Positions 32,436 through 49,673 of a stretch of DNA of 64,000 nt are shown here, one piece after another. Source of the DNA: Caproiciproducens galactitolivorans (GTDB lineage: Bacteria > Bacillota > Clostridia > Oscillospirales > Acutalibacteraceae). Position 1 is the stretch's first letter. The number at the start of each line of letters is the position of its first letter. The notes beneath the pieces were generated by a model. The model did no database searches. It worked only from the letters and a program-made list of their open reading frames with translations, and was not told where the DNA came from. The stretch is taken from the NCBI RefSeq assembly GCF_004768785.1, contig NZ_SRMQ01000009.1:58900-122899 (forward strand). The letters are read 5' to 3'. The translations under genes were made by a program, and so were the position numbers.

Positions 32436-32467
32436 GATTTCACCCTCTGAAGATAAATTATCACATC

Positions 32468-32496
32468 TAATATTTGACAAGATTGTGAAATTATGC
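32468..32496 (-). promoter_or_regulatory. Sigma-G-like promoter of the germination operon
   Basis: On the minus strand: GCATA (-35, 32496-32492), 17-bp spacer, AATATTA (-10, 32474-32468). This fits the forespore sigma-G pattern (GNATR / CATNNTA) with one mismatch. Position is about 33 bp before the start codon. Germinant-receptor operons are normally sigma-G dependent. Confidence 0.45.
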
Positions 32497-32752
32497 GTTT
32501 TTGCCTGCAGAAAATGTACCATGCAGGTCTTGCAGGAAATTTGCAAACCTGTCCGTTCCGGGATACTCGGTTCGCCATTGTGGATATGCCTTTGTTCCTG
32601 TTTTCAAAAGCCGTATTAAGCATCGTTCAGGAAATATATCCCTTTTTTCTTCACTGTTAATACGTATTTAACAGAATCCGGCAAATATTGTATTATAATA
32701 TTTTCAGTCAGAACAATTGGAATCATATTACTTGGAGGGATCAGGAGATTTT

Positions 32753-34135: not shown

Positions 34136-34279
34136 TTATTCACCCTTTTTGTATTTTAGCCTGGTCGCCATTCCGCCCCTTATATGGCGCTGTGCTTTAT
34201 TAATATCAAGCACCTGCTTTACCTGCCTGTATAGCTGCGGGTCGACATATTTTAAACGCTGCGCCACATCTTTATGTAC
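34136..34279 (-). CDS. spoIIID: SpoIIID, C-terminal part of an interrupted gene
   Basis: Open frame on the minus strand with no start of its own. From the junction it reads KDVAQRLKYVDPQLYRQVKQ... and ends in HIRGGMATRLKYKKGE, the conserved C terminus of SpoIIID (Bacillus SpoIIID has STVHKDLTERLPEINP and HLRGGEATKLKYKKDE). SpoIIID is the mother-cell regulator between sigma-E and sigma-K. Codons 39-83 are here; codons 1-38 lie 14.5 kb away at 48856-48743. The join falls inside the recognition helix of the HTH. The sequence is intact, not decayed, which supports a functional gene restored by excision. Confidence 0.93.
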   Translation of the reverse strand, partial: VHKDVAQRLKYVDPQLYRQVKQVLDINKAQRHIRGGMATRLKYKKGE

Positions 34280-35804
34280 GGTTGTCGCTTAAATGGACGG
34301 ATTCCGGCAGGCCGGCCTCGCGCAGCACCTTGAGGTAAATATCCACGTTCCCGCTTTCGTCAACCCGAATGCAGTCCAGTACGCGGTGGAGCAGATTGTT
34401 TGTGGTGGTGTCCGCTTTGAGAATGGCGTCAATGTCGCGGAAGGTCTCGTTCAGTCCGTTTTCCAGCAGGTCGCTTTTGCTGATGTGGTTCCTTACCAGT
34501 TTCAGTTCCTTTTCCAGACTGGAAATGGAGTCGTTGAGCTCTTTTGTCTTATTACGCAACTCTTCCATCGTTATAATCTCGTTCTCATACATTTCCAGAT
34601 ACTTCTTTTTAGAACGCCTTTCTTTGTTCAGCCGGGCGGTAAGTTCCCGCTCGGATACCTGGTTCTGGTCTTTGGTACGATACTGGCGATTAAATTCGGC
34701 CACAATGCCGCGAATTACGTTGGGCTTGTCCGACAGGATTTTACGGAAATACGAGCGGATGGAATCCAACAGTTCCTGTTCGTCCAGGATTGTGCGGTTC
34801 GGACAGGTATCCACTCCGTTCGCGCTGCGCCCGGCGCATGACCATTTGATATAGGTATTTTTAAAGGTACGGACGGAGCGCCGGAACGAGTTGCCGCAGC
34901 AGGTGCATTTAATCAGTTTGCTGAAAATGTTTTTTTGGCTGTTGCGCCTCCCGCTGTTCTTGAAAGTCTCCCGTTTCTGTGCGATTAGAGCTTGTGCGCG
35001 CCGGAACGTAGCGTCATCGATGATCCGTAGCTCTGGGCATTCCGTGACCAGCCATTTGCTTTCGTCCTGCCGCCGGCGCTTTCCGGTTAAGAAATCTGAT
35101 ACTTCCTGTTTCCCGTTGACGATTTTTCCAATATAGATTTCATTGCTCAGGATGCGGGCGACCGCGTTTTGGCTCCAGTTGCAATTGCGCTTGGTTTTCA
35201 GCCCACGCCGGTTCAGCTCGACCGCGATGACCGTCTCCCCGTTTCCTTCCAGATAGAGATTGAAAATTTCACGAACGACTTTTGCTTCCTGCTCGTTAAT
35301 ATTCAGGTTGAAATAGTCTCCCGGAATCTTGTCATAGCCGTAAACAAGGTTGGGCACCCGGCCTTTCTCCGCATTCTGTTTTTTGCCGAATTTCACACGC
35401 TTTGAAGTATTGGAGCTTTCTTCCTGGGCAATGGCGGAAAGCATAGTAAGCATGAATTCGGAACTGTCGGAGGAGGTCTGATCGTAATTTACGAAAATGA
35501 CTTTGATGCCAAGCGCTTTCATTTTACGGATGCTGGTCAGAAAGTCTACGGTGTTACGGGCTAGGCGGGAAACGTCCTTGATTAGTACAACATCGAATTG
35601 ATGGGCTTGCGCGTCTGCGAGCAGACGGAGCAATTGGGTGCGGTTTTTCATTTTTGTTCCGCTTTTGCCTTCATCGGCGTAGATTTTTACGAGATTGTAT
35701 TGATTGTGCTTTGCGTATTCCAGAAAGAATTGCTGCTGGCTTTCCAGACTGTCGAGCTGCTCCTCTTTGTTGGTGGATACCCGGCAGTAGGCAACTGCTT
35801 TCAT
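34272..35804 (-). CDS. Large serine recombinase (SpoIVCA-like) of the spoIIID element
   Basis: 510 residues from the ATG at 35804 (MKAVAYCRVSTNKEEQ; AGGTGAT upstream). Resolvase domain with catalytic Ser10 in YCRVS and the Arg-rich motif DVSRLARNTVDF. Recombinase domain around VPNLVYGYDKI. Zinc ribbon with CTCCGNSF...CAGRS...CPN (about 305-350). A coiled-coil segment at about 400-470, then a C-terminal tail. Same architecture and size as SpoIVCA, which excises skin from sigK. The stop codon TAA lies at the crossover core, so the last codons cross the attachment site; excision would extend the protein. Confidence 0.93.
   Translation of the reverse strand: MKAVAYCRVSTNKEEQLDSLESQQQFFLEYAKHNQYNLVKIYADEGKSGTKMKNRTQLLRLLADAQAHQFDVVLIKDVSRLARNTVDFLTSIRKMKALGIKVIFVNYDQTSSDSSEFMLTMLSAIAQEESSNTSKRVKFGKKQNAEKGRVPNLVYGYDKIPGDYFNLNINEQEAKVVREIFNLYLEGNGETVIAVELNRRGLKTKRNCNWSQNAVARILSNEIYIGKIVNGKQEVSDFLTGKRRRQDESKWLVTECPELRIIDDATFRRAQALIAQKRETFKNSGRRNSQKNIFSKLIKCTCCGNSFRRSVRTFKNTYIKWSCAGRSANGVDTCPNRTILDEQELLDSIRSYFRKILSDKPNVIRGIVAEFNRQYRTKDQNQVSERELTARLNKERRSKKKYLEMYENEIITMEELRNKTKELNDSISSLEKELKLVRNHISKSDLLENGLNETFRDIDAILKADTTTNNLLHRVLDCIRVDESGNVDIYLKVLREAGLPESVHLSDNRT
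34273..34295 (+). repeat. Left attachment site of the spoIIID element
   Basis: The core TATGTAC (34273-34279) is shared with the right end. The adjoining 16-bp arm (34280-34295) is the inverse of the right arm, with 15 of 16 matches. To the left of the core lies spoIIID codon 39 onward. Confidence 0.85.
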
Positions 35805-35856
35805 ACGATCACCTTTCCTAATAAAATGCAAAACGTTTTTTGGCTTTAAAACGAAA

Positions 35857-35880
35857 GCAGAACGAAGTCGTTCGTTCTGC
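35857..35880 (-). terminator. Hairpin between the 60-codon gene and the recombinase
   Basis: Perfect 10-bp stem GCAGAACGAA / TTCGTTCTGC with a 4-base loop, followed on the minus strand by TTTCGTTTT. It probably stops read-through into the recombinase gene, leaving it under its own (unseen) promoter or under attenuation. Confidence 0.6.
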
Positions 35881-35939
35881 CCTTGTGCTATCATTCAATT
35901 TTAATCAAGACGCACGATACGTCCATAGCTTAATATTGA

Positions 35940-36122
35940 TTACATTGTCAGGCTGACCGGGGAGGAGGGTAAGCTGGAATCGGCTGCGTATTGCCGGCTT
36001 GCCTGTTTCTGAATGATCTTTTCCGCAATATTTTCCGCGATCAGCTTTGTCAGGTATTTGGCGGTTTCTTCGTCGGTATTCGGGTTATGGAACGTAATAT
36101 GTAGAACCTGTCCCTGTTTCAA
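35940..36122 (-). CDS. Small protein next to the recombinase
   Basis: 60 residues with a TTG start preceded by GGGGGGAG at 5 bp. The sequence begins MKQGQVLHITFHNPNTDEET, followed by an Ala/Ile/Lys helix (TKLIAENIAEKIIQKQ) and a Ser/Pro-rich end. The HNPN motif recurs in small proteins next to serine recombinases in Firmicutes as I remember them. It could be a recombination directionality factor or another accessory, but nothing in the sequence proves this. Confidence 0.6.
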   Translation of the reverse strand: MKQGQVLHITFHNPNTDEETAKYLTKLIAENIAEKIIQKQASRQYAADSSLPSSPVSLTM

Positions 36123-36672
36123 ATTTACTCCCCCCTCTTTGTTGGACTGGTAAATTCTATGAGGGGAATGAATCGAATATGTTTACAATCGTGGGACAGG
36201 TTTCGTCGCGTTGCCGGAATTTGTGCCCTGCTTACCGATTTTAAGTATGTTTTCTTATCGAAAACGGCAGGAGAATATATCTGTGGCGGGCTTTGGGGAA
36301 TGGTTTCTATAATAAGTGAAGGAGAACGTACTATAAACATTGAAATTCTACCAGACTGCAGGAATGAAATATTGAGATAGATCATTAGCCAAAATTAAAG
36401 AGTATGTCATCATATCTAGCCTTTCAAAAGTAAATGTATGACCGGATCTTATTGTATTTCCGACTGGAGTGCAAGCTTGTCCGCATAGTAAATTAGTGTT
36501 GCTTATACTTCATGTCTTGTGTTACACTGTTCATGCAGGAATGGCACGTCCTTTCGATGAATTTTGTGTGGTAACTCAATTTTAACCGATGGATCCATTC
36601 CTGTCTTTATTTTTAACTGTCCAATATCTATTGTAGTCCTACACAAATACACTTCCCAAAATAGAATTCAAC
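36123..36672. other. 550-bp gene-free stretch inside the element
   Basis: A+T-rich, with no open frame that has both a ribosome site and protein-like composition. Separates the leftward recombinase unit from the rightward polysaccharide operon. I see no clear operator or RNA structure in it. Confidence 0.6.
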
Positions 36673-36701
36673 TTGCTATTTTATGGGTAATGAGATAGAA
36701 T
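36673..36701 (+). promoter_or_regulatory. Sigma-A-type promoter of the polysaccharide operon
   Basis: TTGCTA (36673-36678), 17-bp spacer, TAGAAT (36696-36701), 28 bp before the first start codon. A housekeeping promoter implies vegetative expression of the cargo. Confidence 0.6.
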
Positions 36702-36729
36702 AAAAAATATATAAAAGTGGGTGGAGTAC

Positions 36730-37857
36730 TTGAAAAAAATTCTTTATTGTGCTTCGACAATTGAACATATTAGAAATTTTCATATTCCGTATTTAAAAGT
36801 TTTTTATGATAAAGGATATGAAGTATGGGTTCTTGCAAATAAAACTGAACCCATGCCATACACAGAACATGTGGTTGCATTTCCATTTCATAAGAGCTTT
36901 ATTAGTATTACAAACATCAAAACAATATTTACTGTTAGAAAACTAATAAAAGAACACGATTTTGATATTGTAAGTACGCATACCACTCTGGCCAGTACAA
37001 TCGTTCGGGTGGGTATTAAGCTATTAAGAAGAAGACCAGAAGTCTTTCATACATGTCATGGCTATCTTTTCCACGAAAAGGATGGTCTAAGAAAATGGCT
37101 CTATCTTCTACCTGAAAAAATTTGTGCTTCAGTTACAAATAATGTAATGGTTATGAATCATGAAGATTATGAGATTGCAACAAAACATAAGCTTTATAAA
37201 GGCAACCTATATTATATTAATGGAATGGGGATTGACTTATCAAAATTCTATCCGGCATCACAAAATGAAAAAAAGTTACAACGCATGACATATGGTTATT
37301 CTGAAAACGATTTCTTACTTGTTTATGCAGCTGAGTTTTCAAAACGTAAAAATCAGGAGCTACTGATAAGAGCTTTTGCGAATGTGTGCGGAAAGATGCC
37401 CAATGCCAAACTCTTACTAGCCGGAAGTGGGACACTTTTTGAAAATTGCAAAAAACTTGCTCATAAATTACATATAAGCAAGCAGACACACTTTTTGGGA
37501 TATGTAGAAGATATGCGGCGCTTATATATTATGTGTGATGTTTCTGTAACAACTTCACGAATTGAAGGTTTACCTTTCAATGTTATGGAGTCGATGGCCT
37601 GCGGACTACCCGTAATAGCAAGTGATATTAAAGGACATAGAGAGCTTGTGGAGAGTGGAAAGACAGGCATTTTATTTAATAGCCAGGATGGCGATACAAC
37701 CGAATTAGAAAATGCACTATTAATGTTGTATTCATATCAAAACAAGCGCGAAACATTTTGTAAGGAAGGAATTGAAAAAGTTAAAGCATATGCATTGCAA
37801 AATGTAAAAGGTCAAATTGAACAAATTTATGCAATAAATGATAGAGGGAACCTATGA
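36730..37857 (+). CDS. Glycosyltransferase family 4 (GT-B fold)
   Basis: 375 residues from the TTG at 36730 (KKILYCASTIEHIRNFHIPY is the usual N terminus; GGTGG upstream), or 378 from the GTG at 36721. N-terminal acceptor domain with STHTTLASTIVRVG and HTCHGYLFH. C-terminal donor domain with YAAEFSKRKNQELLIRAF and the nucleotide-sugar motif IEGLPFNVMESMACGLPV (Glu...Glu). Similar to EpsD/CapM-like enzymes that add early sugars to surface polysaccharides on the cytoplasmic face. Overlaps the next gene by 4 bp. Confidence 0.9.
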   Translation: MKKILYCASTIEHIRNFHIPYLKVFYDKGYEVWVLANKTEPMPYTEHVVAFPFHKSFISITNIKTIFTVRKLIKEHDFDIVSTHTTLASTIVRVGIKLLRRRPEVFHTCHGYLFHEKDGLRKWLYLLPEKICASVTNNVMVMNHEDYEIATKHKLYKGNLYYINGMGIDLSKFYPASQNEKKLQRMTYGYSENDFLLVYAAEFSKRKNQELLIRAFANVCGKMPNAKLLLAGSGTLFENCKKLAHKLHISKQTHFLGYVEDMRRLYIMCDVSVTTSRIEGLPFNVMESMACGLPVIASDIKGHRELVESGKTGILFNSQDGDTTELENALLMLYSYQNKRETFCKEGIEKVKAYALQNVKGQIEQIYAINDRGNL

Positions 37858-39350
37858 GAAAGCTTCTAAAAAGGGGAAAATATAATTCGATTTCAGATGG
37901 TAAGCAAGCCGTTTCAGATCAAATTAATCTAAAAAAAGTTTGCGCCGTTATTTTATTAGGATATATTATTTTAGCATTCCTTTTTTATATTTTGGCTGGA
38001 GAGCAGTTGCATTTTCGCAGTTCCAGAGGAAATGTAAAAATGCCGGTTCCAAATTTCGGCACCGTAGAAATGGTAGCAGGGGCTAAAGTTGAACAGACTT
38101 TTATTCCGACCATACAACGCTTTAAACAGGTTTCTGTTACGTGGGGTACCTATGGCCGTCATAATAAAGGGACGGTTTTGATTGAATTATATAATTTGAA
38201 GGATAACAGCAGAATTTTATCGCAAACGGTGGATGTTTCTAAGTTGACCGAAGGAGCTATTACTACGGTGGCTTCTGAGAAGTATCTGGAAAACCTGTAC
38301 GGAGTTCCTCTACTACTGCGGATCACTTCCCCAGATTCTGTTGCTGGCAGTGCCGTTTCTCCAATGATGAAAACAGATGCGGAGCCCAAGGCGGGGCAAC
38401 AGCTGTATTTGAACGGCAAGGCAGTCAATGGTGTGTTGGCCTTTTCTGCAGAAGGGCAGGATTATATTTGGCTTGGATTACACTACTGGAAATTTATAGC
38501 TGCCGGTGGTATTTTGCTGGCGGCCTATCTGCTATATATCTTGATGCGGACAAAGAGAAAGAAGAAAAGCGTTCTTCTGAACGCTCTTGTTGCCATGAAA
38601 AAATATCGCTTTTTGATTTATCAACTGGTTTCCAGAGATTTCAAAACCAAGTATAAGCGTTCTATTCTTGGTGTGTTTTGGAGTTTCTTAAATCCACTGC
38701 TGATGATGACCGTACAGTACTATGTTTTTTCAACGATTTTTAAAACTGATATTGCTTTCTACCCAGTATATCTGCTTACAGGCATCATTATGTTTAATTT
38801 TTTTTCAGAAGCGTGCGGGATGGCTCTCACTTCTATTTTGGGGAATGCCAGCCTAATTACGAAGGTGTATGTGCCCAAATACATTTACCCGTTGACGCGC
38901 ATCCTGTCTTCGTTGGTTAATCTTGCAATTTCCCTAATTCCGCTGTTTGTGGTAGGATGCTTTTCTAATGTGCCGTTTACAAAATCTTTTTTATTGTTTC
39001 CTTTCTTTTTGCTGTGCCTAGCTGTTTTTAGCTTGGGGTTGGGAATGTTGCTAGCGGCCGGTATGGTGTTTTTTAGGGACGTACAGTTCCTATGGAGCGT
39101 TTTCAGCATGATGTGGATGTACGCCACTCCTATTTTCTATCCGGAAAGCATATTGCCGGATCAATTCAAGTTTGTGTTGCAGATTAATCCGCTTTATTAT
39201 TTTATAACCTTTGCCCGTACCTGCATTATCAGCGGTATTTCGCCGGAACCGATTGCGTATATTCAGTCGTTTCTGCTTGCGTTGGGGATGTTGCTTGTGG
39301 GGGCTTTTGTTTTTAAAAAGACGCAGGATAAGTTTATCCTGTATATTTGA
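37854..39350 (+). CDS. Polysaccharide ABC exporter permease (Wzm/TagG type) with extra N-terminal domain
   Basis: 498 residues, almost twice the usual 260. The C-terminal half (about 240-498) is a standard six-TM ABC-2 O-antigen/teichoic-acid exporter: SRDFKTKYKRSILGVFWSFLNPLL and MWMYATPIFYPESILP are diagnostic. The N-terminal half has a TM helix (about 30-50), an extracytoplasmic beta-rich domain of about 150 residues and a second TM (about 212-230). It may sense or hold the exported glycan. Works with the ATPase that follows 15 bp later. Confidence 0.9.
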   Translation: MRKLLKRGKYNSISDGKQAVSDQINLKKVCAVILLGYIILAFLFYILAGEQLHFRSSRGNVKMPVPNFGTVEMVAGAKVEQTFIPTIQRFKQVSVTWGTYGRHNKGTVLIELYNLKDNSRILSQTVDVSKLTEGAITTVASEKYLENLYGVPLLLRITSPDSVAGSAVSPMMKTDAEPKAGQQLYLNGKAVNGVLAFSAEGQDYIWLGLHYWKFIAAGGILLAAYLLYILMRTKRKKKSVLLNALVAMKKYRFLIYQLVSRDFKTKYKRSILGVFWSFLNPLLMMTVQYYVFSTIFKTDIAFYPVYLLTGIIMFNFFSEACGMALTSILGNASLITKVYVPKYIYPLTRILSSLVNLAISLIPLFVVGCFSNVPFTKSFLLFPFFLLCLAVFSLGLGMLLAAGMVFFRDVQFLWSVFSMMWMYATPIFYPESILPDQFKFVLQINPLYYFITFARTCIISGISPEPIAYIQSFLLALGMLLVGAFVFKKTQDKFILYI

Positions 39351-39365
39351 TTTAGGAGCAGAGCC

Positions 39366-40094
39366 ATGTCTGAAAATATGATTGAAATACAAAATGTATC
39401 TATGCGGTTTCGATTTGCTAATGACAGGATTTTATCTCTGAAAGAATTTGTTACGGCAAAACTGCGCGGAAAGTTAACTTACCAAGACTTTTGGGCACTA
39501 AAAAATGTTTCTTTTAATGTTAAGAAAGGCGAAGTGGTGGGAATTATTGGCGGCAACGGCGCAGGAAAAAGCACACTCCTGAAGATCATCTCACGCATTA
39601 TGAAACCAACAGAAGGAGCTGTTATTTGCCATGGAAATATCGTCCCTATGCTGGAGCTTGGTTCTGGATTTGATGCCGATTTGACGGGTCGCGAAAATAT
39701 TTTTTTGAATGGTGCTATTCTGGGATATACGAAAGAATTTCTGGAAAGCAAGTATCAGGAAATTTTAGATTTTTCACAATTAGGACAGTTTATTGATATG
39801 CCGATTCGTAATTATTCTTCCGGAATGATGATGCGCCTTGCGTTTTCTATTGCTACGTTAGTTAATCCGGAGATTTTAATTGTAGATGAAATTCTTGCCG
39901 TTGGAGACGAGGCGTTTCAGAAAAAAAGTTATGCCCGTATGATGGAACTAATGAGTGGCGGTACAACAGTCCTTTTAGTTTCTCATAATTTGGAGCAAAT
40001 TCGGAATATGTGCAGTCGCGTTGTTTGGCTGGAGCATGGTAATGTACGTATGTTTGGTGACGTTCAGGAGGTCTGTGATGCCTACTCGCTTTAA
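39366..40094 (+). CDS. Polysaccharide ABC exporter ATPase (Wzt/TagH type)
   Basis: 242 residues. Walker A GGNGAGKST, the family block MLELGSGFDADLTGRENIFLNGA, signature YSSGMMMRLAFSIA, Walker B ILIVDEILAVGD, switch His in LVSHNLEQI. It lacks the C-terminal carbohydrate-binding domain of long Wzt proteins, so glycan recognition may lie in the unusual permease domain. Overlaps the next start by 17 bp. Confidence 0.94.
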   Translation: MSENMIEIQNVSMRFRFANDRILSLKEFVTAKLRGKLTYQDFWALKNVSFNVKKGEVVGIIGGNGAGKSTLLKIISRIMKPTEGAVICHGNIVPMLELGSGFDADLTGRENIFLNGAILGYTKEFLESKYQEILDFSQLGQFIDMPIRNYSSGMMMRLAFSIATLVNPEILIVDEILAVGDEAFQKKSYARMMELMSGGTTVLLVSHNLEQIRNMCSRVVWLEHGNVRMFGDVQEVCDAYSL

Positions 40095-40935
40095 GGACTT
40101 TCCGGATGTCCGGCTGTATGTGGTATATCATAAAAACCTGATTTTGCCGGAAATTCCCACGCTAACTTTTTTGCGTTCTGATTTGTATGGGAAGAACCAT
40201 ATTGCAGACAAAGAGGATTACTGCGAGCTGCGGGCTCAATATTATGTCTGGAAGAATCAAAAATCTGATTATGCCGGGTTCTTCCATTATCGTCGGTATC
40301 TGGAATTAACAGAAGACAAGCTGGTTCAGTTGCCGAATGGGAAAAGGCCTGTCCCCTATCGAATTCAGCGCTTCCCTCAGCAAAAGCAGTACATAGAAGA
40401 GAAGATTAGATCCATAATACCCAGGTTTGATGCGATTGCCCCGGTCAGGGAATACACGGGAGTATCTGTATGGAAACGCTATGCAGCTTCTTTGGGACAG
40501 CGTGGGGATGACTTGAAGCTGGTATATGATATTATCCGTGAGAAATACCCGGATTATCTATCTGCCGCAGATGAGTATCTGAATGGAAAGGGAGAATATT
40601 ACGGTAATATTTTTATTATGAAATGGCGATGTTTTGATGATTATTGTCAATGGCTTTTTAGTATCCTAGAGGAATTTGATAACAGAGTCCAGAACCCCTT
40701 GCCCAGAACAGACGGATATCTGGGGGAGCGGCTTTTTGGCATCTATTTTACATGGCTTTGTCGTCAACCTGGAATACGGTGTGCGGAACTGCCGAGGATT
40801 CATTTTTATGGGTATGATGATACGAATCATGCTTTTTTACGTGCGAAGTTTGTCAATTTTTTTCTCCCACCCGGCAGTCAAGGGCGTGCAATGCTGCGGA
40901 GTTTTACTATAAAACATTTGGAGGATAACACATGA
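40078..40935 (+). CDS. DUF4422 glycosyltransferase-like protein (first copy)
   Basis: 285 residues from the ATG at 40078 (AGGAGG upstream, inside the ATPase gene). DUF4422 domain: YCELRAQYYVWKNQKSDYAG and FFHYRRYLE are the family core, and GEYYGNIFIMKWRCFDDY the later block. Members occur in capsule and O-antigen clusters and are taken as galactosyl- or galactofuranosyl-transferases. The C-terminal motif LPPGSQGRAMLR resembles the tails of the next two genes. Confidence 0.88.
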   Translation: MPTRFKDFPDVRLYVVYHKNLILPEIPTLTFLRSDLYGKNHIADKEDYCELRAQYYVWKNQKSDYAGFFHYRRYLELTEDKLVQLPNGKRPVPYRIQRFPQQKQYIEEKIRSIIPRFDAIAPVREYTGVSVWKRYAASLGQRGDDLKLVYDIIREKYPDYLSAADEYLNGKGEYYGNIFIMKWRCFDDYCQWLFSILEEFDNRVQNPLPRTDGYLGERLFGIYFTWLCRQPGIRCAELPRIHFYGYDDTNHAFLRAKFVNFFLPPGSQGRAMLRSFTIKHLEDNT

Positions 40936-42872
40936 GCGATATTAAAATTTTTGTATCACACCGGATTGATCAGGAAAGCGAGACCATTGATAATCCCTTA
41001 TACGTTAATGTGCGTTGTGGCGCTGTTTATGACAAGCGTTCTCCTGAAGAGATCGGCGGCATGCTGGGGGATAATACGGGGGACAATATCTCAGAAAAAA
41101 GAATGTCGTTTTGTGAACTAACTGTACAGTATTGGGCTTGGAAAAATATTCAGGCTGATTATTATGGCCTTTGTCATTACAGGAGATATTTAAGTTTTTC
41201 TGATATACAATTTAAGAAAACAAATGTATATAAACACGTTGTTGAGAATATTATTGATGAAAATTTTATAAAAAAATTTAAATTAACAGAAGATCATATG
41301 CGTCAAAAGATAGAACAGTATGATGCAATTTCTTTAATTCCTATGCGTTTGGATAAGATTAAAAATGAACCTAAACGTACAGTACTTGAGTCTTTGAAAA
41401 AAAATAATACAGTATTCCCTTTTGAAGTTGTAGAGAGATTTATTAAAATTACTAAATTGAAATATCCATTTCTTGAGGAAGATATAGATGCTTATTTTAA
41501 TGGTTATACTTGGAGGGGATTTAATTGCTATATTATGAAGAAAAATATTTTCTTCGAGTATAATGAAATGCTTTTTGATATACTTTTTGCTTTAGAAAAA
41601 GAATTTGATTCTACTTATTATAGTCAAGAGCAGTTACGTGTGCTGGGATATATGGGAGAGGCCTTTTGGGGAATATACTTTCATTACTTGGAACGTCAGA
41701 AAACTTTTCGCTTAAAAGAAATGCAGCTCGTATTAATTCAGAATCCACAACGCCATGTGGAGTTAGAACCTGCTTTTTCTGATATAAATATTCCTGTAGT
41801 TATGGCTTCTAGTAATGAATATGTACCTTTTCTTGCTGTGTTATTAACATCAATTAGACAAAATTCATCTCCACAGTACAATTATGATATCATAATTATA
41901 AGCAGTCATATTAGAAAACACAATCAAAAATTGATTAGGCAAATATTTGAGGGAAACCCCAATTTTTCAATTCGCTTTGTTGACGCAGATAGATATTTGA
42001 GTGGACGTACATTTCATACGAGTATGCATGTCACAGCGATGACATATTTAAGACTGGCTATGCTGGATTTGCTGAAGAAATATGATAAAGCAATATATTT
42101 GGACTGCGACATGGTTGTGAATGTAGATATTGCGAAATTGTACTATATAGATATTGAAAACTATATGATAGCAGCTGCCCGGGATTCAGTAATGGCAGGT
42201 TGGTGCAACGTAAAAAATAATTTACAAGGGGAATATAATAAGAAAGTAATTGGTTTAAAGCGCGATTTTGAATACTTCAATGCTGGTGTAATTATATTAA
42301 ATTTGAAGGAATTCAGAAAAAAATTTACGACAGAAGAACTGATGAATATTGCAACTTCGCGCAAATGGAAGTGGTTTGATCAAGATGTACTTAATAAAGT
42401 ATGTGAAGGCCATGTAAAACTTCTTGATAATAGATGGAATGTAATGAGTCATTTGCACGACTTTGATTATCAGCTTGCTGAATTTTTCGCACCACAGTCA
42501 ATTTATCAAAATTATTTAGATGCATTGGAAGACCCTTGGATTATTCATTACGCAGGACGTTGTATTCCTTGTTTTGTACCACAAGTTGACCTTGCAGAAT
42601 ATTTCTGGAAATATGCAAGGATGACTCCATACTATGAATTGATTCTTTCAGCTATGTGCAGTAATCAGTATGGTGCGTTAGTTGATCATCGTACAGGCGC
42701 TCGGAAACTTGCGGATAAGCTCTTACCTAAAGGAAGCCGTCGCAGGGAATTTGCAAAAAAGCTATTGCCAAAAGGTTCCCGTCGTTGGAATTTCTGTAAA
42801 CAGATTTATTACATTTTTTGTCCTAAGTACAGACCCCCAAAAATAAGTAGTTGCATTTCAGAAGATGATTAA
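40932..42872 (+). CDS. DUF4422 - GT8 fusion glycosyltransferase (second copy)
   Basis: 646 residues in two enzymes fused. N-terminal DUF4422 at about 1-270 (FCELTVQYWAWKNIQADYYG, LCHYRRYLSFS). GT8 domain at about 288-570 (IPVVMASSNEYVPFLAVLLTS, the DXD motif in YLDCDMVVNVD, FNAGVIILNLKEFR, and WIIHYAGRCIP). C-terminal tail with a tandem LLPKGSRRREFAKK / LLPKGSRRWNFCKQ repeat. Visibly more A+T-rich than its neighbours. Probably adds two sugars in sequence. Overlaps both flanking genes by 4-8 bp. Confidence 0.9.
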   Translation: MSDIKIFVSHRIDQESETIDNPLYVNVRCGAVYDKRSPEEIGGMLGDNTGDNISEKRMSFCELTVQYWAWKNIQADYYGLCHYRRYLSFSDIQFKKTNVYKHVVENIIDENFIKKFKLTEDHMRQKIEQYDAISLIPMRLDKIKNEPKRTVLESLKKNNTVFPFEVVERFIKITKLKYPFLEEDIDAYFNGYTWRGFNCYIMKKNIFFEYNEMLFDILFALEKEFDSTYYSQEQLRVLGYMGEAFWGIYFHYLERQKTFRLKEMQLVLIQNPQRHVELEPAFSDINIPVVMASSNEYVPFLAVLLTSIRQNSSPQYNYDIIIISSHIRKHNQKLIRQIFEGNPNFSIRFVDADRYLSGRTFHTSMHVTAMTYLRLAMLDLLKKYDKAIYLDCDMVVNVDIAKLYYIDIENYMIAAARDSVMAGWCNVKNNLQGEYNKKVIGLKRDFEYFNAGVIILNLKEFRKKFTTEELMNIATSRKWKWFDQDVLNKVCEGHVKLLDNRWNVMSHLHDFDYQLAEFFAPQSIYQNYLDALEDPWIIHYAGRCIPCFVPQVDLAEYFWKYARMTPYYELILSAMCSNQYGALVDHRTGARKLADKLLPKGSRRREFAKKLLPKGSRRWNFCKQIYYIFCPKYRPPKISSCISEDD

Positions 42873-43833
42873 TATTAAAATTTTTGTTTCGCGCCGGTTG
42901 GATCTTGATAGTGTGGAAATTCCTAACCCATTATATGTTCCTATGCTGTGCGGTGCTTTTCGAAAACACCCACCATTACCTTTTATCGGAGACAATACCG
43001 GTGACAATATTTCGGAGAAACAGCCTTTTTATTCGGAACTGACGGTACAGTACTGGGCGTGGGGAAATGCAAACGCGGATTATTATGGACTGTGCCACTA
43101 CCGCCGTTACTTATCTTTTTCGGACAAACGATACCGTACCAACGAGCAAAATATGGTTGTAGAACCTATATTATCGCCGGGAGCGATTCGGCGGCACAGA
43201 CTGATGGATAGTAGCAAAATGCAGAGTGTTATCAGCCAATATGATGCTATCGTATCAGAATGTGCAGATGTAAGGCATATCCCTGTTCCGAATGGCGGGT
43301 TGCCCAAAACTGTCCGGGAGCTGTGGGAAGGACATGACGGAGTCTTTATTTATAAAAAAGATTTAGATATTCTTTTGCAGGTCATACGCGATTTGCATCC
43401 GGAATATATGGATTCTGCGCAGAAATATCTTTCAGGTTCGGCTCATAGGGGCTATAATTGCTATGTTCTGCGGCGTGATTTGTTTTTCAGGATGTGCCAA
43501 TTCCAATTTGATGTTTTAGATGAATTGGAGCGCCTTATAGATATAAGCGCATACCAAGGAAATTTGAAGCGGGTTTTCGGATATATGGGCGAAATTATGT
43601 ATGGCATTTTTATTTATGATTTGGAACAGCAGGATATATACAAAATAAAGGAGCTTCAGCTGGTTTATTTTGAGGAAACACGGCAACCAAAGAACTTTAT
43701 ACACAGAGCTTGGTTGTTTGGGTTAGCTTACCTGACATCTGCATTAAGGCATAGTTCTGAGGCCTTTTTACCAAAGGGTTCGGTAAGACGCGAGAATGTA
43801 AAAAAAATCTTAAGGCGTTTACGCAATATTTAA
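42865..43833 (+). CDS. DUF4422 glycosyltransferase-like protein (third copy)
   Basis: 322 residues. DUF4422 with YSELTVQYWAWGNANADYYG, LCHYRRYLSFSDKR and AHRGYNCYVLRRDLFF. Closest in the window to the N-terminal half of the preceding fusion, so the pair probably arose by duplication. Ends in LPKGSVRRENVKKILRRL, the same type of basic tail. Overlaps the upstream gene by 8 bp. Confidence 0.88.
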   Translation: MINIKIFVSRRLDLDSVEIPNPLYVPMLCGAFRKHPPLPFIGDNTGDNISEKQPFYSELTVQYWAWGNANADYYGLCHYRRYLSFSDKRYRTNEQNMVVEPILSPGAIRRHRLMDSSKMQSVISQYDAIVSECADVRHIPVPNGGLPKTVRELWEGHDGVFIYKKDLDILLQVIRDLHPEYMDSAQKYLSGSAHRGYNCYVLRRDLFFRMCQFQFDVLDELERLIDISAYQGNLKRVFGYMGEIMYGIFIYDLEQQDIYKIKELQLVYFEETRQPKNFIHRAWLFGLAYLTSALRHSSEAFLPKGSVRRENVKKILRRLRNI

Positions 43834-43852
43834 GAAGAAAGTGAGTGGTTTA

Positions 43853-44626
43853 ATGAAGGCAGTAATTTTAGCGGGCGGTTTTGGTACGCGCATCAGTGAG
43901 GAAAGCCATTTAAAGCCCAAACCGATGATTGAAATTGGAGATCAACCTATTCTTTGGCATATTATGAAATATTATTCCTATTACGGAGTAAACGATTTTA
44001 TTATTTGTGCGGGCTATAAACAGCATATTATCAAGGAGTATTTTGCGAATTATTATCTTCACCGCTCTGATATAACTTTTGATTTTACGGCGAATAATCA
44101 TATTACCGTACATAACAATGTTGCTGAGCCATGGAAGGTGACCGTTGTAGATACCGGTTTAAACACGATGACTGGCGGACGAATTAAACGTGTTAAAAAT
44201 TATATAGGTAATGAGACTTTCATGATGACTTACGGAGATGGCGTTTGTGACGTGGATTTGAACAAGTTACTGGCTTTTCATAAGCAACACGGGAAATTGG
44301 CAACAATGACAGCCATTCAGCCTGGCGGGCGTTTTGGAACCTTGGAAATCCAGAATGATTTTACTATTTCCAGATTTGCGGAAAAGAGAAAAGAAGACGG
44401 CGGCTGGATTAACGGCGGATTTATGGTGCTTGATCCAAAGGTAATCGATTATATTGAAGATGATAGCACTACCTTTGAAAGAGAACCGCTTGAAAGGCTT
44501 TCCTCTGAGGGACAACTGGTTGCCTATCAGCATGATGGTTTCTGGCAATGTATGGATACGCTTCGCGACAAAGAAAAATTAGAGTCTTTGTGGATGTCCG
44601 GGAAAGCACCTTGGATGAAGTGGTAA
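43853..44626 (+). CDS. rfbF: Glucose-1-phosphate cytidylyltransferase
   Basis: 257 residues from the ATG at 43853 (MKAVILAGGFGTRISEESHLKPKPM), the normal start; an in-frame GTG 12 bp upstream is less likely. Nucleotidyltransferase motif GGFGTRI and the RfbF/DdhA-specific block LKPKPMIEIGDQPILWHIMK. The DYGDGVCD-type metal site appears as TYGDGVCDVD. Makes CDP-glucose from CTP and glucose-1-phosphate, the first step to CDP-deoxyhexoses. Confidence 0.95.
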   Translation: MKAVILAGGFGTRISEESHLKPKPMIEIGDQPILWHIMKYYSYYGVNDFIICAGYKQHIIKEYFANYYLHRSDITFDFTANNHITVHNNVAEPWKVTVVDTGLNTMTGGRIKRVKNYIGNETFMMTYGDGVCDVDLNKLLAFHKQHGKLATMTAIQPGGRFGTLEIQNDFTISRFAEKRKEDGGWINGGFMVLDPKVIDYIEDDSTTFEREPLERLSSEGQLVAYQHDGFWQCMDTLRDKEKLESLWMSGKAPWMKW

Positions 44627-44636
44627 GGAGAATACG

Positions 44637-45695
44637 ATGATAGATTTAGAATTTTTTTATGGCAAAAAGGTGTTAGTAACAGGTCATACCGGCTTTAAAG
44701 GATCCTGGCTTTGCCGTATTCTTTTAAACGCAGGTGCCGAAGTTACCGGATATTCTTTACCGGCACCTACCAAACCAAATTTATTTTCTATGGCGGATTT
44801 GGGAAAAAATATGGATTCCATTATTGGAGATATTCGTGATGTGGAACATTTAAAGAAGTCTTTTGACACGGCACGTCCGGAAATCGTTTTACATCTGGCT
44901 GCTCAGCCTATTGTGAGAGAAAGCTATCAAACACCTGCCTACACATACGAAACAAATGTAATGGGTACGGTTAATATTTTGGAATGTGTTCGGCAAAACA
45001 CTTGTGTGAAAAGCTTTTTAAACGTAACCACCGATAAAGTATATCAAAACAATGAATGGCATTGGGGCTATCGTGAAAACGAGCCTTTGGACGGATTTGA
45101 TCCGTATTCTAATTCAAAAAGCTGTTCCGAACTGGTAACACACAGCTACAAAAATAGCTTTTTTTCGGATGGTTCCGTGGCTATCAGTACCGCACGTGCC
45201 GGAAATGTTATTGGCGGTGGAGATTTTGCCAAAGATCGTATTATACCGGATTGTGTGCGCGCGGTTCAGAAAAAAGAAACCATTATCGTAAGAAATCCTC
45301 ATTCTACCAGGCCATATCAGCATGTGCTTGAACCGTTATTTGCGTATCTCATGATTGTTCAAAAACAGTACCAAGATGGGAGATATGCAGATTGGTACAA
45401 TGTTGGTCCTGACGAATGCGATTGTGTAACAACAGGAAAACTGGTTGATCTGTTTTGCAAAACATGGGGCGAAGGAGCATCATGGGAGAATCGGTGGACA
45501 GGCGGCCCGCACGAAGCTAATTTCTTAAAACTGGATTGTTCTAAGATTAAAGCTACTTTCGGCTGGAAGCCTACTTGGCATATTACAGACGCCATTGAGA
45601 ACACCTGTAAATGGACAAGAGTATGGCTTTCCGGACAGGATATCCCGGCTGAAATGGATCGGCAAATTAAAGATTATAGGGAGAAAATGCAATGA
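44637..45695 (+). CDS. rfbG: CDP-glucose 4,6-dehydratase
   Basis: 352-residue short-chain dehydrogenase-fold enzyme. NAD motif GHTGFKGSWL, catalytic TTDKVYQN (Thr-Asp-Lys) and YSNSKS (Tyr-x3-Lys) as in RfbG/DdhB. Converts CDP-glucose to CDP-4-keto-6-deoxyglucose. Follows rfbF by 10 bp and overlaps the next gene by 4 bp. Confidence 0.94.
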   Translation: MIDLEFFYGKKVLVTGHTGFKGSWLCRILLNAGAEVTGYSLPAPTKPNLFSMADLGKNMDSIIGDIRDVEHLKKSFDTARPEIVLHLAAQPIVRESYQTPAYTYETNVMGTVNILECVRQNTCVKSFLNVTTDKVYQNNEWHWGYRENEPLDGFDPYSNSKSCSELVTHSYKNSFFSDGSVAISTARAGNVIGGGDFAKDRIIPDCVRAVQKKETIIVRNPHSTRPYQHVLEPLFAYLMIVQKQYQDGRYADWYNVGPDECDCVTTGKLVDLFCKTWGEGASWENRWTGGPHEANFLKLDCSKIKATFGWKPTWHITDAIENTCKWTRVWLSGQDIPAEMDRQIKDYREKMQ

Positions 45696-46609
45696 AAAAA
45701 GTTATTGTGTCTGGGGCGAATGGCTTTGTCGGTGGAGCCGTAACCCGCGAATTAATTACCCATGGCATTGAAGTCATAGCATTGGATATGGAAGGTTGCA
45801 ATGGAAATCTGCCAGAATCTCCACTAGTTACTTTTATCCCCATGTCTTTGGAAAATCTCACTTCACTAAAGGATAAAATACAAATTGGCTGTTGTGATAC
45901 GTTTTTCCACTTTGCTTGGGCCGGTTCTGCCGGACCCGCCCGTGCAGATACAGCCCTTCAATTAAAAAATGCTCAATGGACAGTAGACTGCTTACGTTTC
46001 GCTAAGGAACTTGGATGTAAGAGGTTTGTGTGTGCTGGCAGCATTATGGAACATGAAACCATTGCTGCTGCTTTTTCGGCTGGCAATAAACCTGGTCTGG
46101 GATATATCTATGGAAGCGGCAAACTGGTAGCACATACTATGTGTAAATCAGTAGCTGCTGACATTGGTATCGATTTAGTATGGGTGCAGATCACAAACGC
46201 CTACGGAGTCGGGGAACGCTCTCCTCGCTTTGTGAATACTACTTTGCGTAAGATCATTCATGGAGAACCATTGCAATTTACTTCCGGCACGCAGAACTAT
46301 GATTTTGTTTATATCGATGATGTGGCACGTGCATTTCACTTAATTGGAGAAAATGGAAAACCATTTTGTGAATATATAATTGGCAGCTCTAATGCAAAGC
46401 CACTTAGAGAATTTGTGCTGGAAATGAAATCAGCCGTTGCACCGGAGAAAGAGTTTACGTTCGGAGATGTCCGATTTACGGGGATTAACCTACCCCTTCC
46501 TGTTTTTGACTGTTCAAAAACGGAAGAAGATACCGGATTTAAATCTCAAGTAAGTTTTGCAGAAGGGTGTAAGCGTACTTTAGAGTGGTTGAAAGAGGTG
46601 GAAAAATAA
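45692..46609 (+). CDS. NAD-dependent epimerase/reductase for a CDP-deoxy sugar
   Basis: 305 residues. Rossmann motif SGANGFVGGAV, catalytic Tyr-x3-Lys in YGSGKLVAH. Extended SDR of the type that reduces the 4-keto group of CDP- or dTDP-deoxyhexoses (CDP-abequose synthase/AltB-like position in the operon). Exact stereochemistry cannot be read from sequence. Confidence 0.83.
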   Translation: MKKVIVSGANGFVGGAVTRELITHGIEVIALDMEGCNGNLPESPLVTFIPMSLENLTSLKDKIQIGCCDTFFHFAWAGSAGPARADTALQLKNAQWTVDCLRFAKELGCKRFVCAGSIMEHETIAAAFSAGNKPGLGYIYGSGKLVAHTMCKSVAADIGIDLVWVQITNAYGVGERSPRFVNTTLRKIIHGEPLQFTSGTQNYDFVYIDDVARAFHLIGENGKPFCEYIIGSSNAKPLREFVLEMKSAVAPEKEFTFGDVRFTGINLPLPVFDCSKTEEDTGFKSQVSFAEGCKRTLEWLKEVEK

Positions 46610-47176
46610 ATGCAAAAGTTTTCTTTTCAGGAAACTGAAATTAATGGTTTGATTTTAGTTAAACCTTTTTTAGCAGAAGATGTTCGTGGTTATTTCATTA
46701 AAGACTATTCTCAGGAAGTGTTTGAGCAAAATGGGATAACACATGATTTAAAAGAAGTGTTTTATACGAATTCGCATAAAGGGGTAATTCGTGCATTGCA
46801 TTTTCAACGTGAAAAACAGCAGCCTAAATTGGTTCGTTGTGTATGGGGGCATGTCTATGATGTAGTTGTTGACTTGCGCAAAAACTCGCCTACCTTTAAA
46901 AAATGGCTTGGCTTTGAACTTTCGGAAGAAAACAAAGATGAGTTGTTGGTCCCTGCCGGTTGTGCCCATGGATATTTAGTATTGGAGCATTCGGTGGTTT
47001 CTTATAAATGTGCAGAAAAGTTTTATGGAGAGTACGATGATGGTATTATGTGGAATGACCCAGACATCGATGTAAAGTGGCCGCTGGAACGTGTAGATAA
47101 TCAAATTATCCTATCCGATAAAGATAAGAACCTTCAAACTTTTTCACAGTTCATGGAAAAGTATGGTGGCTTTTAA
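46610..47176 (+). CDS. RmlC-like sugar epimerase
   Basis: 188 residues, the RmlC family length. Cupin-fold motifs: IRALHFQREKQQPKLVRCVWG, VYDVVVDLRKNSPTFKKW and VPAGCAHGYLVLEHS. In a CDP pathway with RfbF/RfbG this would be a 3- or 3,5-epimerase acting on CDP-4-keto-6-deoxyglucose (AltA-like). The start codon follows the upstream stop directly. Confidence 0.88.
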   Translation: MQKFSFQETEINGLILVKPFLAEDVRGYFIKDYSQEVFEQNGITHDLKEVFYTNSHKGVIRALHFQREKQQPKLVRCVWGHVYDVVVDLRKNSPTFKKWLGFELSEENKDELLVPAGCAHGYLVLEHSVVSYKCAEKFYGEYDDGIMWNDPDIDVKWPLERVDNQIILSDKDKNLQTFSQFMEKYGGF

Positions 47177-48340
47177 ATGGATTTTTTAGTAGTAGGTTGT
47201 GGTTTGTCGGGTTGTGTTGTAGCACGTAATCTGGCAGAACGGGGTTATAAAGTTACGATATGGGAACGCAGGGATCATATTGCAGGGAATATGTATGATT
47301 ACGTGGATTCATATGGTGTTTTGGTACACAAATATGGTCCACACACCTTTCATACTAAGAAGAAAGAATTGTACGATTATATATGTCGCTTTGCTAGCTG
47401 GGTGGATTATAAACTTACCTGCATGACTGAAATTGATGGCATTGCAACGCCGACTCCGTTCAATTTTCAAACGATTGATGATTTTTATGCTCCTAAGCAA
47501 GCCATAGAACTGAAAGCACATATCAAAGCGGCTTTTGGGGATAGGCAGACAGCGACTGTGGTGGAAGTGATACAGCACGATGACCCATTAATTCGGGCTT
47601 ATGGCCAATTCTTGTTTGACAAAGATTACAGCTTGTATACCGCAAAACAGTGGGGAGTATCGCCTAATGAAATTGATGTGAGTATTCTACAGCGTGTCCC
47701 TTTACGCTTTTCATATGATACGGGCTATTTTGATGATGAATATCAGGTTATACCCCGGCCTAGTTATACGGATTTTTTCAAGAATCTGATAAACCACCCT
47801 AATATTACAGTCAAATTTAACATTGATGCGCTTACGCGTCTTTCGGTAAAAGATTCCAAACTGTTTCTTGATGATAGAATCTGTCCTTGTACGGTCGTTT
47901 ATACAGGAGCCCTTGATGAACTTTTTGGCTGTATAGAGGGATCACTACCTTATCGTTCTCTACACTTTGAATGGGTGCACGAAGACATTGAAAGCAAGCA
48001 GAAAGCACCTGTAGTTGCTTATCCACAGGCAGCAGGCTATACTCGCATCACCGAATATAAAAAGTTGCCTGTACAAAATGTAAAGGGGACTACTTATGCG
48101 GTAGAGTATCCCCTGACTTATTGCGATAATAGTAAATCAGAACCATACTATCCGGTTTTAACTGAAGAAAGTAAACGAAAATATGACAGATACAAGGAAC
48201 TGGCCGATAAGGTGGAGAACCTTTATTATTGTGGACGTTTAGCGGACTTTAAGTATTACAATATGGATCAGGCGCTAGAGCGGGCTTTGGAATTATGTAA
48301 AATTGTAATGGTCAAGCAATTTTGTAACACCACTGTCTAA
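47177..48340 (+). CDS. glf: UDP-galactopyranose mutase
   Basis: 387 residues. FAD motif VVGCGLSGCVVARNLAERG, then WERRDHIAGNMYDYVDSYGVLVHKYGPHTFHT, KQWGVSPNEID and the C-terminal CGRLADFKYYNMDQAL with flavin-binding Arg/Asp. Interconverts UDP-galactopyranose and UDP-galactofuranose, so the exported glycan probably contains galactofuranose. The last residues (VMVKQFCNTTV) differ from the usual end and overlap an IS relic, whose arrival may have replaced the original C terminus. Confidence 0.95.
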   Translation: MDFLVVGCGLSGCVVARNLAERGYKVTIWERRDHIAGNMYDYVDSYGVLVHKYGPHTFHTKKKELYDYICRFASWVDYKLTCMTEIDGIATPTPFNFQTIDDFYAPKQAIELKAHIKAAFGDRQTATVVEVIQHDDPLIRAYGQFLFDKDYSLYTAKQWGVSPNEIDVSILQRVPLRFSYDTGYFDDEYQVIPRPSYTDFFKNLINHPNITVKFNIDALTRLSVKDSKLFLDDRICPCTVVYTGALDELFGCIEGSLPYRSLHFEWVHEDIESKQKAPVVAYPQAAGYTRITEYKKLPVQNVKGTTYAVEYPLTYCDNSKSEPYYPVLTEESKRKYDRYKELADKVENLYYCGRLADFKYYNMDQALERALELCKIVMVKQFCNTTV

Positions 48341-48571
48341 ATTAAGCCAATCCATACCTTGCTTCATATGGCGTTCGATAATCGTTGTATGAGTGTGTGG
48401 ACGAACCTGATTGTACCAAACATATGCATATTCTGAAATAGCATGTGTCAATTCTTCATCGGTTCGAAAGTTGAATCGATTTATCAATTTCGCCTTAAAA
48501 GTATTGTAATCATGCTCTTTTAGAATCCTGATGATCTGTTCCTCGCTGAACCGTTTCTTCATGTTAATCAC
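48293..48571 (-). pseudogene. IS3-family transposase relic with internal deletion
   Basis: 92-codon frame. It starts MKKRFSEEQIIRILKE, the N terminus of an IS3-type OrfA, and then jumps to the C terminus of OrfB (AISEYAYVWYNQVRPHTHT). The DDE core in between is missing. Lies at the right end of the element and overlaps the end of glf. Confidence 0.75.
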
Positions 48572-48642
48572 TCCATCTGCATTTTATAATATCTGATTTC
48601 CCTTTCCGGTTAGAAAAATTTGTTGAGCAACATTCGAAATAC

Positions 48643-48696
48643 AAAAGCCAAGGATTCCCTTCTCATAATCAAAGATCCGGAATCCCTGGCTTTTTT
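48643..48696 (+). terminator. Terminator closing the polysaccharide operon at the element end
   Basis: Arms of 16 bp with one mismatch (48643-48658 with 48679-48694), then T6. It stops rightward transcription 46 bp before the attachment core and may also stop leftward transcripts from the N-terminal half of spoIIID (TTTTGTATTT on the other strand). Confidence 0.82.
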
Positions 48697-48724
48697 CTCT
48701 GTCCTACCAAAATGTAAAATCGTT

Positions 48725-48748
48725 CATTTAAGCTACAACCATATGTAC
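48725..48748 (+). repeat. Right attachment site of the spoIIID element
   Basis: Arm CATTTAAGCTACAACC (48725-48740), one spacer base, then the core TATGTAC (48742-48748). The left arm reads CATTTAAGCGACAACC on the opposite strand. To the right lie spoIIID codons 1-38. Beyond the core the two ends also share GT after one mismatch. Confidence 0.85.
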
Positions 48749-48856
48749 AGTACTTTTGCTCACACCAAACTTTTTGGCTGCGCCGCGCACGGTGGTTTTA
48801 TTTTTGATTATGTACTCGCCGAGCTCCACGGCGCGCTCTTCAACAATGCCTTTCAC
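48728..48856 (-). CDS. spoIIID: SpoIIID, N-terminal part of an interrupted gene
   Basis: GTG start at 48856 with GGGAGG 7 bp upstream. Reads MKGIVEERAVELGEYIIKNK, then TTVRGAAKKFGVSKSTVH up to the attachment core, and then four foreign residues (MVVA) and a stop inside the element. The first 38 residues match the SpoIIID N terminus and the first part of its HTH. In the present arrangement it makes a 42-residue product cut inside the recognition helix, without the DNA-binding C-terminal part. Confidence 0.93.
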   Translation of the reverse strand: MKGIVEERAVELGEYIIKNKTTVRGAAKKFGVSKSTVHMVVA

Positions 48857-48885: not shown

Positions 48886-48915
48886 TAGTTATGCATGGAG
48901 GGGGAGAAATAGTAC
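48886..48915 (-). promoter_or_regulatory. Sigma-E-like promoter of spoIIID
   Basis: On the minus strand: GTACTATT (-35, 48915-48908), 14-bp spacer, CATAACTA (-10, 48893-48886), about 30 bp before the GTG. It resembles the mother-cell sigma-E pattern (KMATATT / CATACANT) with several mismatches. spoIIID is a known sigma-E target. Confidence 0.4.
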
Positions 48916-49202: not shown

Positions 49203-49673
49203 ATGAATTTTACCCAGAATGAGAAGTTAAATCAAGTCACAATCGAAACAATCGTCATCGGAGTAGACATTGGTAGTGAAACGCATTACGCCAGAACGTT
49301 TGACTGGCGGGGCATTGACTTAGGAAAGGTATACCGCTTCTCCAATAACGGAGAAGGATTCGCGGGCTTCTTTGCCGAGGTCGGAGATTTGGGACGCTTC
49401 CGATCCCCCAAACAGATTCAGAAGTTGGCGGGCTTGGCTATCCGTGAAAACAGTTCCGGTAAATACCACGGACAAAGCGGAATCAGCAAACAAGGAAGGC
49501 GGTGTCTTCGGGCGTTACTGTTCCGAGCCGTTCTTCCGCTGGTAGCAACAAACAGAGAATTCGCCGAAATCCATAACTATTACACCAGTCGCAAGGGTAA
49601 TCCGCTGAAGAAAAAACAATCCCTCATTGCTTCGCCATCCAGTAGTAGTGGCAGTGTAAAAAAGCACCATTGA
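49203..49673 (+). pseudogene. IS110-family transposase relic with internal deletion
   Basis: 156-codon frame. The N-terminal DEDD/RuvC start (ETIVIGVDIGSETHYARTFD) is joined directly to the C-terminal Transposase_20 region (FRSPKQIQKLAGLAIRENSS, SKQGRRCLRALLFRAV). IS110 transposases are about 330-430 residues, so more than half is missing. The non-coding flanks, about 49100-49202 and 49674-49960, are probably the remaining IS ends. Confidence 0.82.

Follow-up and report, generated by a model that had tools for sequence, protein, structure and literature searches.

The spoIIID gene of Caproiciproducens galactitolivorans, which encodes a mother-cell transcription regulator of sporulation, is present in two halves on one strand that lie 14,469 bp apart, measured crossover to crossover. 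We analysed this arrangement within a stretch of 64,000 nucleotides (the window, contig NZ_SRMQ01000009.1, positions 58,900 to 122,899 of the forward strand, assembly GCF_004768785.1). The intervening segment is very likely an integrative element, brought in at the CA of the His38 codon by the large serine recombinase that it encodes, and its excision in the mother cell is predicted, with good confidence, to rejoin an 83-residue SpoIIID. Elements that split spoIIID form a family across the Clostridia, with two further records labelled Pelosinus and Selenomonadales.

The divided spoIIID gene and its recombinase

The 5′ half (48743..48856, minus strand, codons 1-38) has a GTG start at 48856, matches PF12116 positions 2-40 with 52.6 bits, and reads VKGIVEERAVELGEYIIKNKTTVRGAAKKFGVSKSTVH, followed in place by MVVA and a stop codon. 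The 3′ half (34136..34273, minus strand, codons 39-83 plus stop; PF12116, 83.9 bits) reads KDVAQRLKYVDPQLYRQVKQVLDINKAQRHIRGGMATRLKYKKGE (34273-34139, with the stop codon at 34138-34136), and joining the two at their common GTACATA gives an 83-residue frame without interruption. Comparison of the junctions places the attL core GTACATA at 48742..48748 and the attR core GTACATA at 34273..34279, both on the minus strand, with the probable crossover at the CA at 48745-48744, in the His38 codon, and at 34276-34275. These are the features on which an earlier note on this DNA had built its proposal. The separation of codons 1-38 and 39-83 on the same strand can be read directly from the sequence, the TATGTAC repeat that it described at both junctions is the plus-strand form of the minus-strand GTACATA (48748-48742 and 34279-34273), and the joined SpoIIID frame is indeed open. 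For the ribosome site that it noted on the N-terminal half, GGGAGG is present at 48869-48864; the sigma-E-like promoter that it also proposed has weak evidence: CATAACT (48887..48893, minus strand) is a weak pattern match to a sigma-E-like −10 sequence, and CATANN(N)T occurs ahead of 13 of the 20 split spoIIID genes and 19 of the 26 intact ones, and in 24% of shuffles.

No second, intact copy of spoIIID, for which the earlier note had proposed a search, was found with PF12116 in the whole 2.58-Mb genome (a draft assembly of 33 contigs); besides the two halves, the sole match is to a 301-residue frame (positions 5-48, 33 bits) and covers the DNA-binding part only. The sigK gene of this genome is one uninterrupted 232-residue frame (298.7 bits; cut-off 298.65) and is not the host gene of an insertion, and SpoIVA is also present.

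The large serine recombinase, of 510 residues, is encoded at 34272..35804 on the minus strand and has Resolvase, Recombinase and Zn_ribbon_recom domains; among solved structures, the nearest come from transposon and phage recombinases, as single domains. Its TAA stop codon (34274-34272) consists of the T of the core and the first two A residues of the spoIIID Lys39 codon, and the far end of the element (48669..48743, minus strand) encodes, in the recombinase frame, YGCSLNERFYILVGQRKKPGIPDL and a stop codon, a tail of 25 residues by which the protein would be extended in the circular form. Immediately upstream of the recombinase gene, at 35940..36122 on the minus strand, is a 60-residue open reading frame (ORF) of the FHNPN family, a candidate directionality factor. 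It has no Pfam, NCBIfam or PHROG match; its six database matches, the first of which is apparently the window's own protein, include none with a named function, and the nearest named relative is from a Caproiciproducens sp. (80% identity).

Recurrence of the split and its attachment sites

The split in the window lies beyond chance because the same split recurs in many genomes; dozens of species have it at this codon, with unrelated cargo. Searching a recombinase profile against GTDB genomes confirmed 557 relatives, of which the best 80 were kept; these are the closest recombinases, not all relatives, and the window's own genome may be missing from them. With half-gene hidden Markov models built from 26 intact spoIIID genes, we find the C-terminal half on the same strand and downstream of the recombinase (0 to 2.4 kb) at 76 of these best 80 loci; two loci (L116 and L125) have only the N-terminal half, upstream, two (L068 and L104) have neither, and both halves fall within the fetched stretch at 12 of the 80. 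Among the names in the record titles are Lachnospiraceae, Oscillospiraceae, Clostridium, Ruminiclostridium, Pelosinus and Selenomonadales. At L125 (11524-11664) an attP-type junction follows the recombinase, with the N half 10 kb upstream, which could be a tandem element or an assembled circular form, and at L104 (11485-11815) the left att arm of a family recombinase runs into a collagen-like GPxGPx coding region, a possible retargeting.

SpoIIID is matched in 118 of 148 relatives, with the halves apart in six (G017, G022, G044, G055, G097 and G103) and one half only in four: G009, where about 17 bp of element sequence precede the C half and the recombinase was not found in the fragmented assembly; G077 and G107, which have the N half, followed in G107 by a sugar-transferase gene; and G106, which has the C half beside a recombinase. 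The TKHKD junction of G106, which might be taken for decay, is made up of element sequence lying to the left of the crossover at CA. In a sample of 392 genomes of the class, 272 match SpoIIID, and at least 18 hold halves only. This figure comprises G107, present in both samples, and 17 genomes recognized on rechecking the 18 rows with the weakest E-values apart from G107, the eighteenth, G244, being a divergent intact gene; of 15 next-weakest rows, 14 proved contiguous and one (G493) contiguous but frame-broken, with none split by an element, and rows with better E-values were taken as intact. Three other candidate split genes (G081, G008 and G099) were rejected as contig-edge cuts of contiguous genes, or because a complete copy was present. 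Of the 18 genomes with halves only, 11 have a recombinase next to a half, and six (G443, G385, G484, G411, G413 and G425) have only an element-type arm there. In G253, a single contig, spoIIID occurs solely in split form, with 65 kb between its halves.

A tree of 153 recombinases places all 95 that are labelled as spoIIID-linked in one clade, with four others inside it and a support of 0.82; the label extends to two viral contigs (L132 and L277), for which it was assigned by attP, and G044 was entered twice (as L034 and L053).

The position of the crossover is closely delimited by the junctions. On the right, all 76 attR sites keep the CA of the His codon unchanged, while the bases to its left vary as element sequence (GTA, ATA, AAA, GCA, TTA); on the left, GTACA is invariant in 20 of 20 attL sites and is followed by element sequence. 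When the element ends are joined they form a palindrome centred on the CA, in the same register, in 17 of 18 cases, with up to 22 of 26 positions paired in G017. An attP with a CA overlap has this appearance in known serine integrases, and we infer that the crossover maps to the CA of the His38 codon. Viral contigs L132 and L277 carry a recombinase of the same family beside an intact attP. Contigs L277, L278 and L279 (50-119 kb) are identical in the 2.8 kb of the recombinase region compared and each has an intact attP; their integration into spoIIID is predicted. No spoIIID half was found at 80 IMG/VR recombinase loci, and exact and degenerate attP patterns gave no match in IMG/VR.

As read from these junctions, integration also splits the recombinase gene, with spoIIID supplying its stop codon and the far end of the element encoding a conserved C-terminal tail. 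At 54 of 76 loci the stop codon is the junction itself (ACA TAA, with TAA formed from the core T and the lysine codon of spoIIID); at 11 the frame reads on past the crossover without a change of phase, and at the other 11 it ends before the junction, the frames at the junctions having been called by short motifs. The far-end tail has 15 residues in 13 of 33 ends (the TYGSNKIERFIWxIx type) and nine residues in 8 of 33, counts that are not independent because the 33 ends (31 integrated and two free) are related by descent. Recombinase and tail are contiguous in viral contigs L132 and L277, and in L277 the frame is uninterrupted through attP.

Integrity of the halves and alternative explanations

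The earlier note had held that decay of both halves in related strains would refute its proposal. We find the halves undamaged in 30 of the 32 genomes that have both, the exceptions (G333 and G385) coming from one genus; the joined frames are open in 18 of 18, 9 of 9 and 3 of 4 cases in three sets, including those of G525, G443 and G411, and G333 is counted as broken. Two pairs with elements in common warrant a closer examination. L093 and L094 have in common an element that is 90% identical in nucleotide sequence over nearly its full length, and G017 and L128 share the recombinase and a glycosyltransferase at 76-77%, with diverged flanks in both pairs. Between the spoIIID halves there are 13 synonymous changes in the first pair and 14 in the second, and no nonsynonymous ones, a 27:0 ratio with a probability of the order of 1e-18 under neutrality (a rough value, assuming about 21% synonymous sites). 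This implies that the halves have stayed functional in the split state, and hence that the gene is presumably rejoined. Where a common element allows the comparison, the sequences indicate that the halves are under purifying selection.

A number of observations weigh against a working, regulated switch. The joined frame of G385 fails, with stop codons in the N half and its SKSTVH end in another frame; G333, of the same genus, has the same N-half stops and was counted as broken without joining; and in a third genome of that genus, G493, spoIIID is unsplit yet frame-broken. The N-half breaks in G333 and G385 are as decay would give. The comparison of G000 with G009, limited to the C half, gives two synonymous changes and one nonsynonymous change and is uninformative, and other split pairs, for which one common insertion is not proven, have ratios of nonsynonymous to synonymous substitution rates of up to 0.44. 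Insertion is patchy in the window's genus, where G001-G004, G006, G007 and G010 are intact, and for this reason selection in the window's own lineage is barely testable. A 21-base joined end of the window element, as expected in an excised circle, is absent from IMG/VR. Finally, a scan upstream of the recombinase (71 of the best-80 loci and five others, nine with little upstream sequence having been dropped) finds the FHNPN ORF at only 42 of 76 loci, with a model whose seed included some of these loci, and shows no enrichment of a sigma-E-like box ahead of the recombinase operons (5 of 75, versus 3.9 expected from shuffles). We also note, as a matter in its own right, that one genus has a frame-broken first part of spoIIID (L241, L212 and G493:C8:71918-72161), which could be either decay or a habit of the lineage.

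Some of these points would fit an account in which excision is low and unregulated in growing cells, only cured cells sporulate, and the element survives by re-infection. Patchy presence within genera, viral contigs with attP, the lack of a sigma-E signal at the recombinase, and the coexistence of both forms of yin in one culture, as given in the accessible part of PMC10747680, all accord with it. However, the elements that are common by descent (90% and 76% nucleotide identity, with diverged flanks) argue for long vertical persistence, which would be hard to keep if every spore were cured, and we regard this account as unlikely. It could also be that an ordinary genomic island simply knocked out spoIIID in a strain that no longer sporulates, as the physically broken gene and the frame-broken N half of G333 and G385 might suggest; but the predominance of intact halves, the absence of nonsynonymous changes in the two element-sharing pairs, and the intact sigK and spoIVA genes make this very improbable. 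An assembly error or chimeric contig, conceivable in a draft of 33 contigs, can be set aside with near certainty, and is refuted for the family because the same arrangement occurs in many independent assemblies, including the single-contig chromosomes G017, G097 and G253.

Cargo, excision and relation to known systems

The cargo of the window element is a surface polysaccharide cluster on the plus strand (36721..48340), identified by domain searches. It includes a glycosyltransferase, an ABC-2 exporter and its ATPase, three DUF4422 proteins, one of them with a GT8 domain, glucose-1-phosphate cytidylyltransferase, CDP-glucose 4,6-dehydratase, RmlC and UDP-galactopyranose mutase, together with an NAD-sugar epimerase-like protein that is below all cut-offs. 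No phage structural or replication genes were found in this cargo, and the element is a polysaccharide island rather than a prophage-like one. Just inside the attL end, at 48293..48571 on the minus strand, is an ORF with an integrase-core fragment (rve_2, 4e-5; IS3-type by eye). Outside the element, an ORF that by eye resembles an IS110-type transposase remnant lies just upstream of the 5′ half (49203-49673), and a GerXA-like spore germination protein is encoded near the 3′ half (30933-32546; NCBIfam NF052514, below cut-off).

Elsewhere in the family the cargo is varied. Among 13 elements from which selected proteins were compared with Pfam or PADLOC, four carry polysaccharide clusters (G000, G044, G022 and G103) and three carry AbiL pairs (L065, L087 and L090); L113 has a NERD-helicase defence-model match and G373 a TIR domain, and the remainder have NlpC/P60, GH43 or AlbA matches, or none. 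Viral contig L132 encodes a phage DNA polymerase, a ligase and tail-type proteins. A prophage origin was considered for the 65-kb element of G253 and rejected, none of the ten proteins compared having a PHROG match. The smallest element, that of G017, is only 3.0 kb long, and its ORFs of at least 60 residues encode a glycosyltransferase and the recombinase, with a shorter FHNPN ORF in addition. Because this element holds little else, the FHNPN protein is the best candidate for a recombination directionality factor.

On the preferred reading, that of an integrative element excised in the mother cell, excision during sporulation would rejoin spoIIID. It would probably be confined to the mother cell, since the element has lasted over long periods, and excision limited to the mother cell would not touch the spore's copy. 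According to the available sections of PMC5025042, skin excision needs SpoIIID in C. difficile, and the B. subtilis skin recombinase gene is under the control of sigma-E and SpoIIID. Since skin excision relies on SpoIIID, the elements described here must have some other trigger. This would most simply be sigma-E or something earlier, although the upstream scan provides no promoter evidence for this. The C. difficile recombinase is constitutive, with regulation falling on the directionality factor, and by analogy a similar division of labour could hold here.

The reciprocal split of the recombinase gene suggests a further step. Integration would cut spoIIID and at the same time trim the recombinase, whose stop codon would come from spoIIID; mother-cell excision would restore SpoIIID on the chromosome and a long-tailed recombinase on the circle, and this longer protein could, as a second step, help to set the direction of recombination. 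It is a tentative possibility, and one on the doubtful side, that spoIIID is a dedicated attachment gene of mobile elements throughout the Clostridia and that the crossover at His38 acts as a two-gene switch, in which the C-terminus of the recombinase reports the state of integration and sets its direction.

SpoIIID stands at the hinge of mother-cell gene expression, and here its own gene needs repair, so that hosts would need a SpoIIID-independent trigger and an irreversible DNA step placed earlier in the cascade. In spoIIID, polysaccharide and defence islands have an attachment site that is used repeatedly; a split copy would mislead predictions of sporulation ability from gene content, and cultured species offer a way to test the mechanism. 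In the portions of the literature accessible to us, spoIIID differences are reported without detail for Anaerostipes hadrus strains of different sporulation (PMC12888040), a 2012 survey places spoIIID among genes 'missing in one or two genomes because of a frameshift or a possible sequencing error' (PMC3533761), and the heat survival of wild-type C. cellulolyticum in a sporulation assay is given as 35.7% (PMC3936895). Should G253, probably a Ruminiclostridium, be R. cellulolyticum H10, this would be a case of sporulation in a strain whose spoIIID exists solely in split form. The interrupted genes named in the parts available are sigK, spoVFB, spoVR, spsM, gerE and yabG. Our searches of the accessible open-access literature, exclusive of bioRxiv and of the target tables of recombinase surveys (PMC10083194), turned up no account in which spoIIID is the host gene that is split, in agreement with the earlier note, which knew of none.

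The earlier note had called this arrangement a new skin-type switch. A skin-like recombinase element inside spoIIID is well supported: the insertion lies within a mother-cell sporulation gene whose parts are intact and in frame, and the element encodes a large serine recombinase and has att sites, as do members of the skin-like class. It is not, however, a single case, but one of a Clostridia-wide family. Like the skin elements of B. subtilis and C. difficile in sigK, it splits the gene of a mother-cell transcription regulator, and the C. difficile recombinase gene CD1231 lies directly upstream of the 3′ part, as in the window (PMC5025042, in the part available). It differs in that spoIIID acts earlier in the cascade and is itself needed for skin excision in both species, and in that the window element is not prophage-like. 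The gin element in gerE of B. cereus ATCC10987 is likewise a non-prophage island that splits a very small mother-cell regulator gene; as far as the available text of PMC5595907 describes it, it has three recombinases and a known accessory factor in one strain, whereas here there is one recombinase clade in many species with varied cargo. The yin (yabG), vfbin (spoVFB), vrin (spoVR) and SPbeta (spsM) elements are also recombinase elements inside mother-cell sporulation genes; in the accounts accessible to us they occupy other host genes, are phage or phage-like, and have been reported to excise, whereas excision of the spoIIID elements is predicted. For an integrase altered by integration, phage Mx8 provides a precedent: its attP lies within int, and integration changes the 3′ end of the gene. 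The accessible part of that account (PMC6070905) describes no split developmental gene, and it is in the spoIIID elements that the host gene supplies the stop codon.

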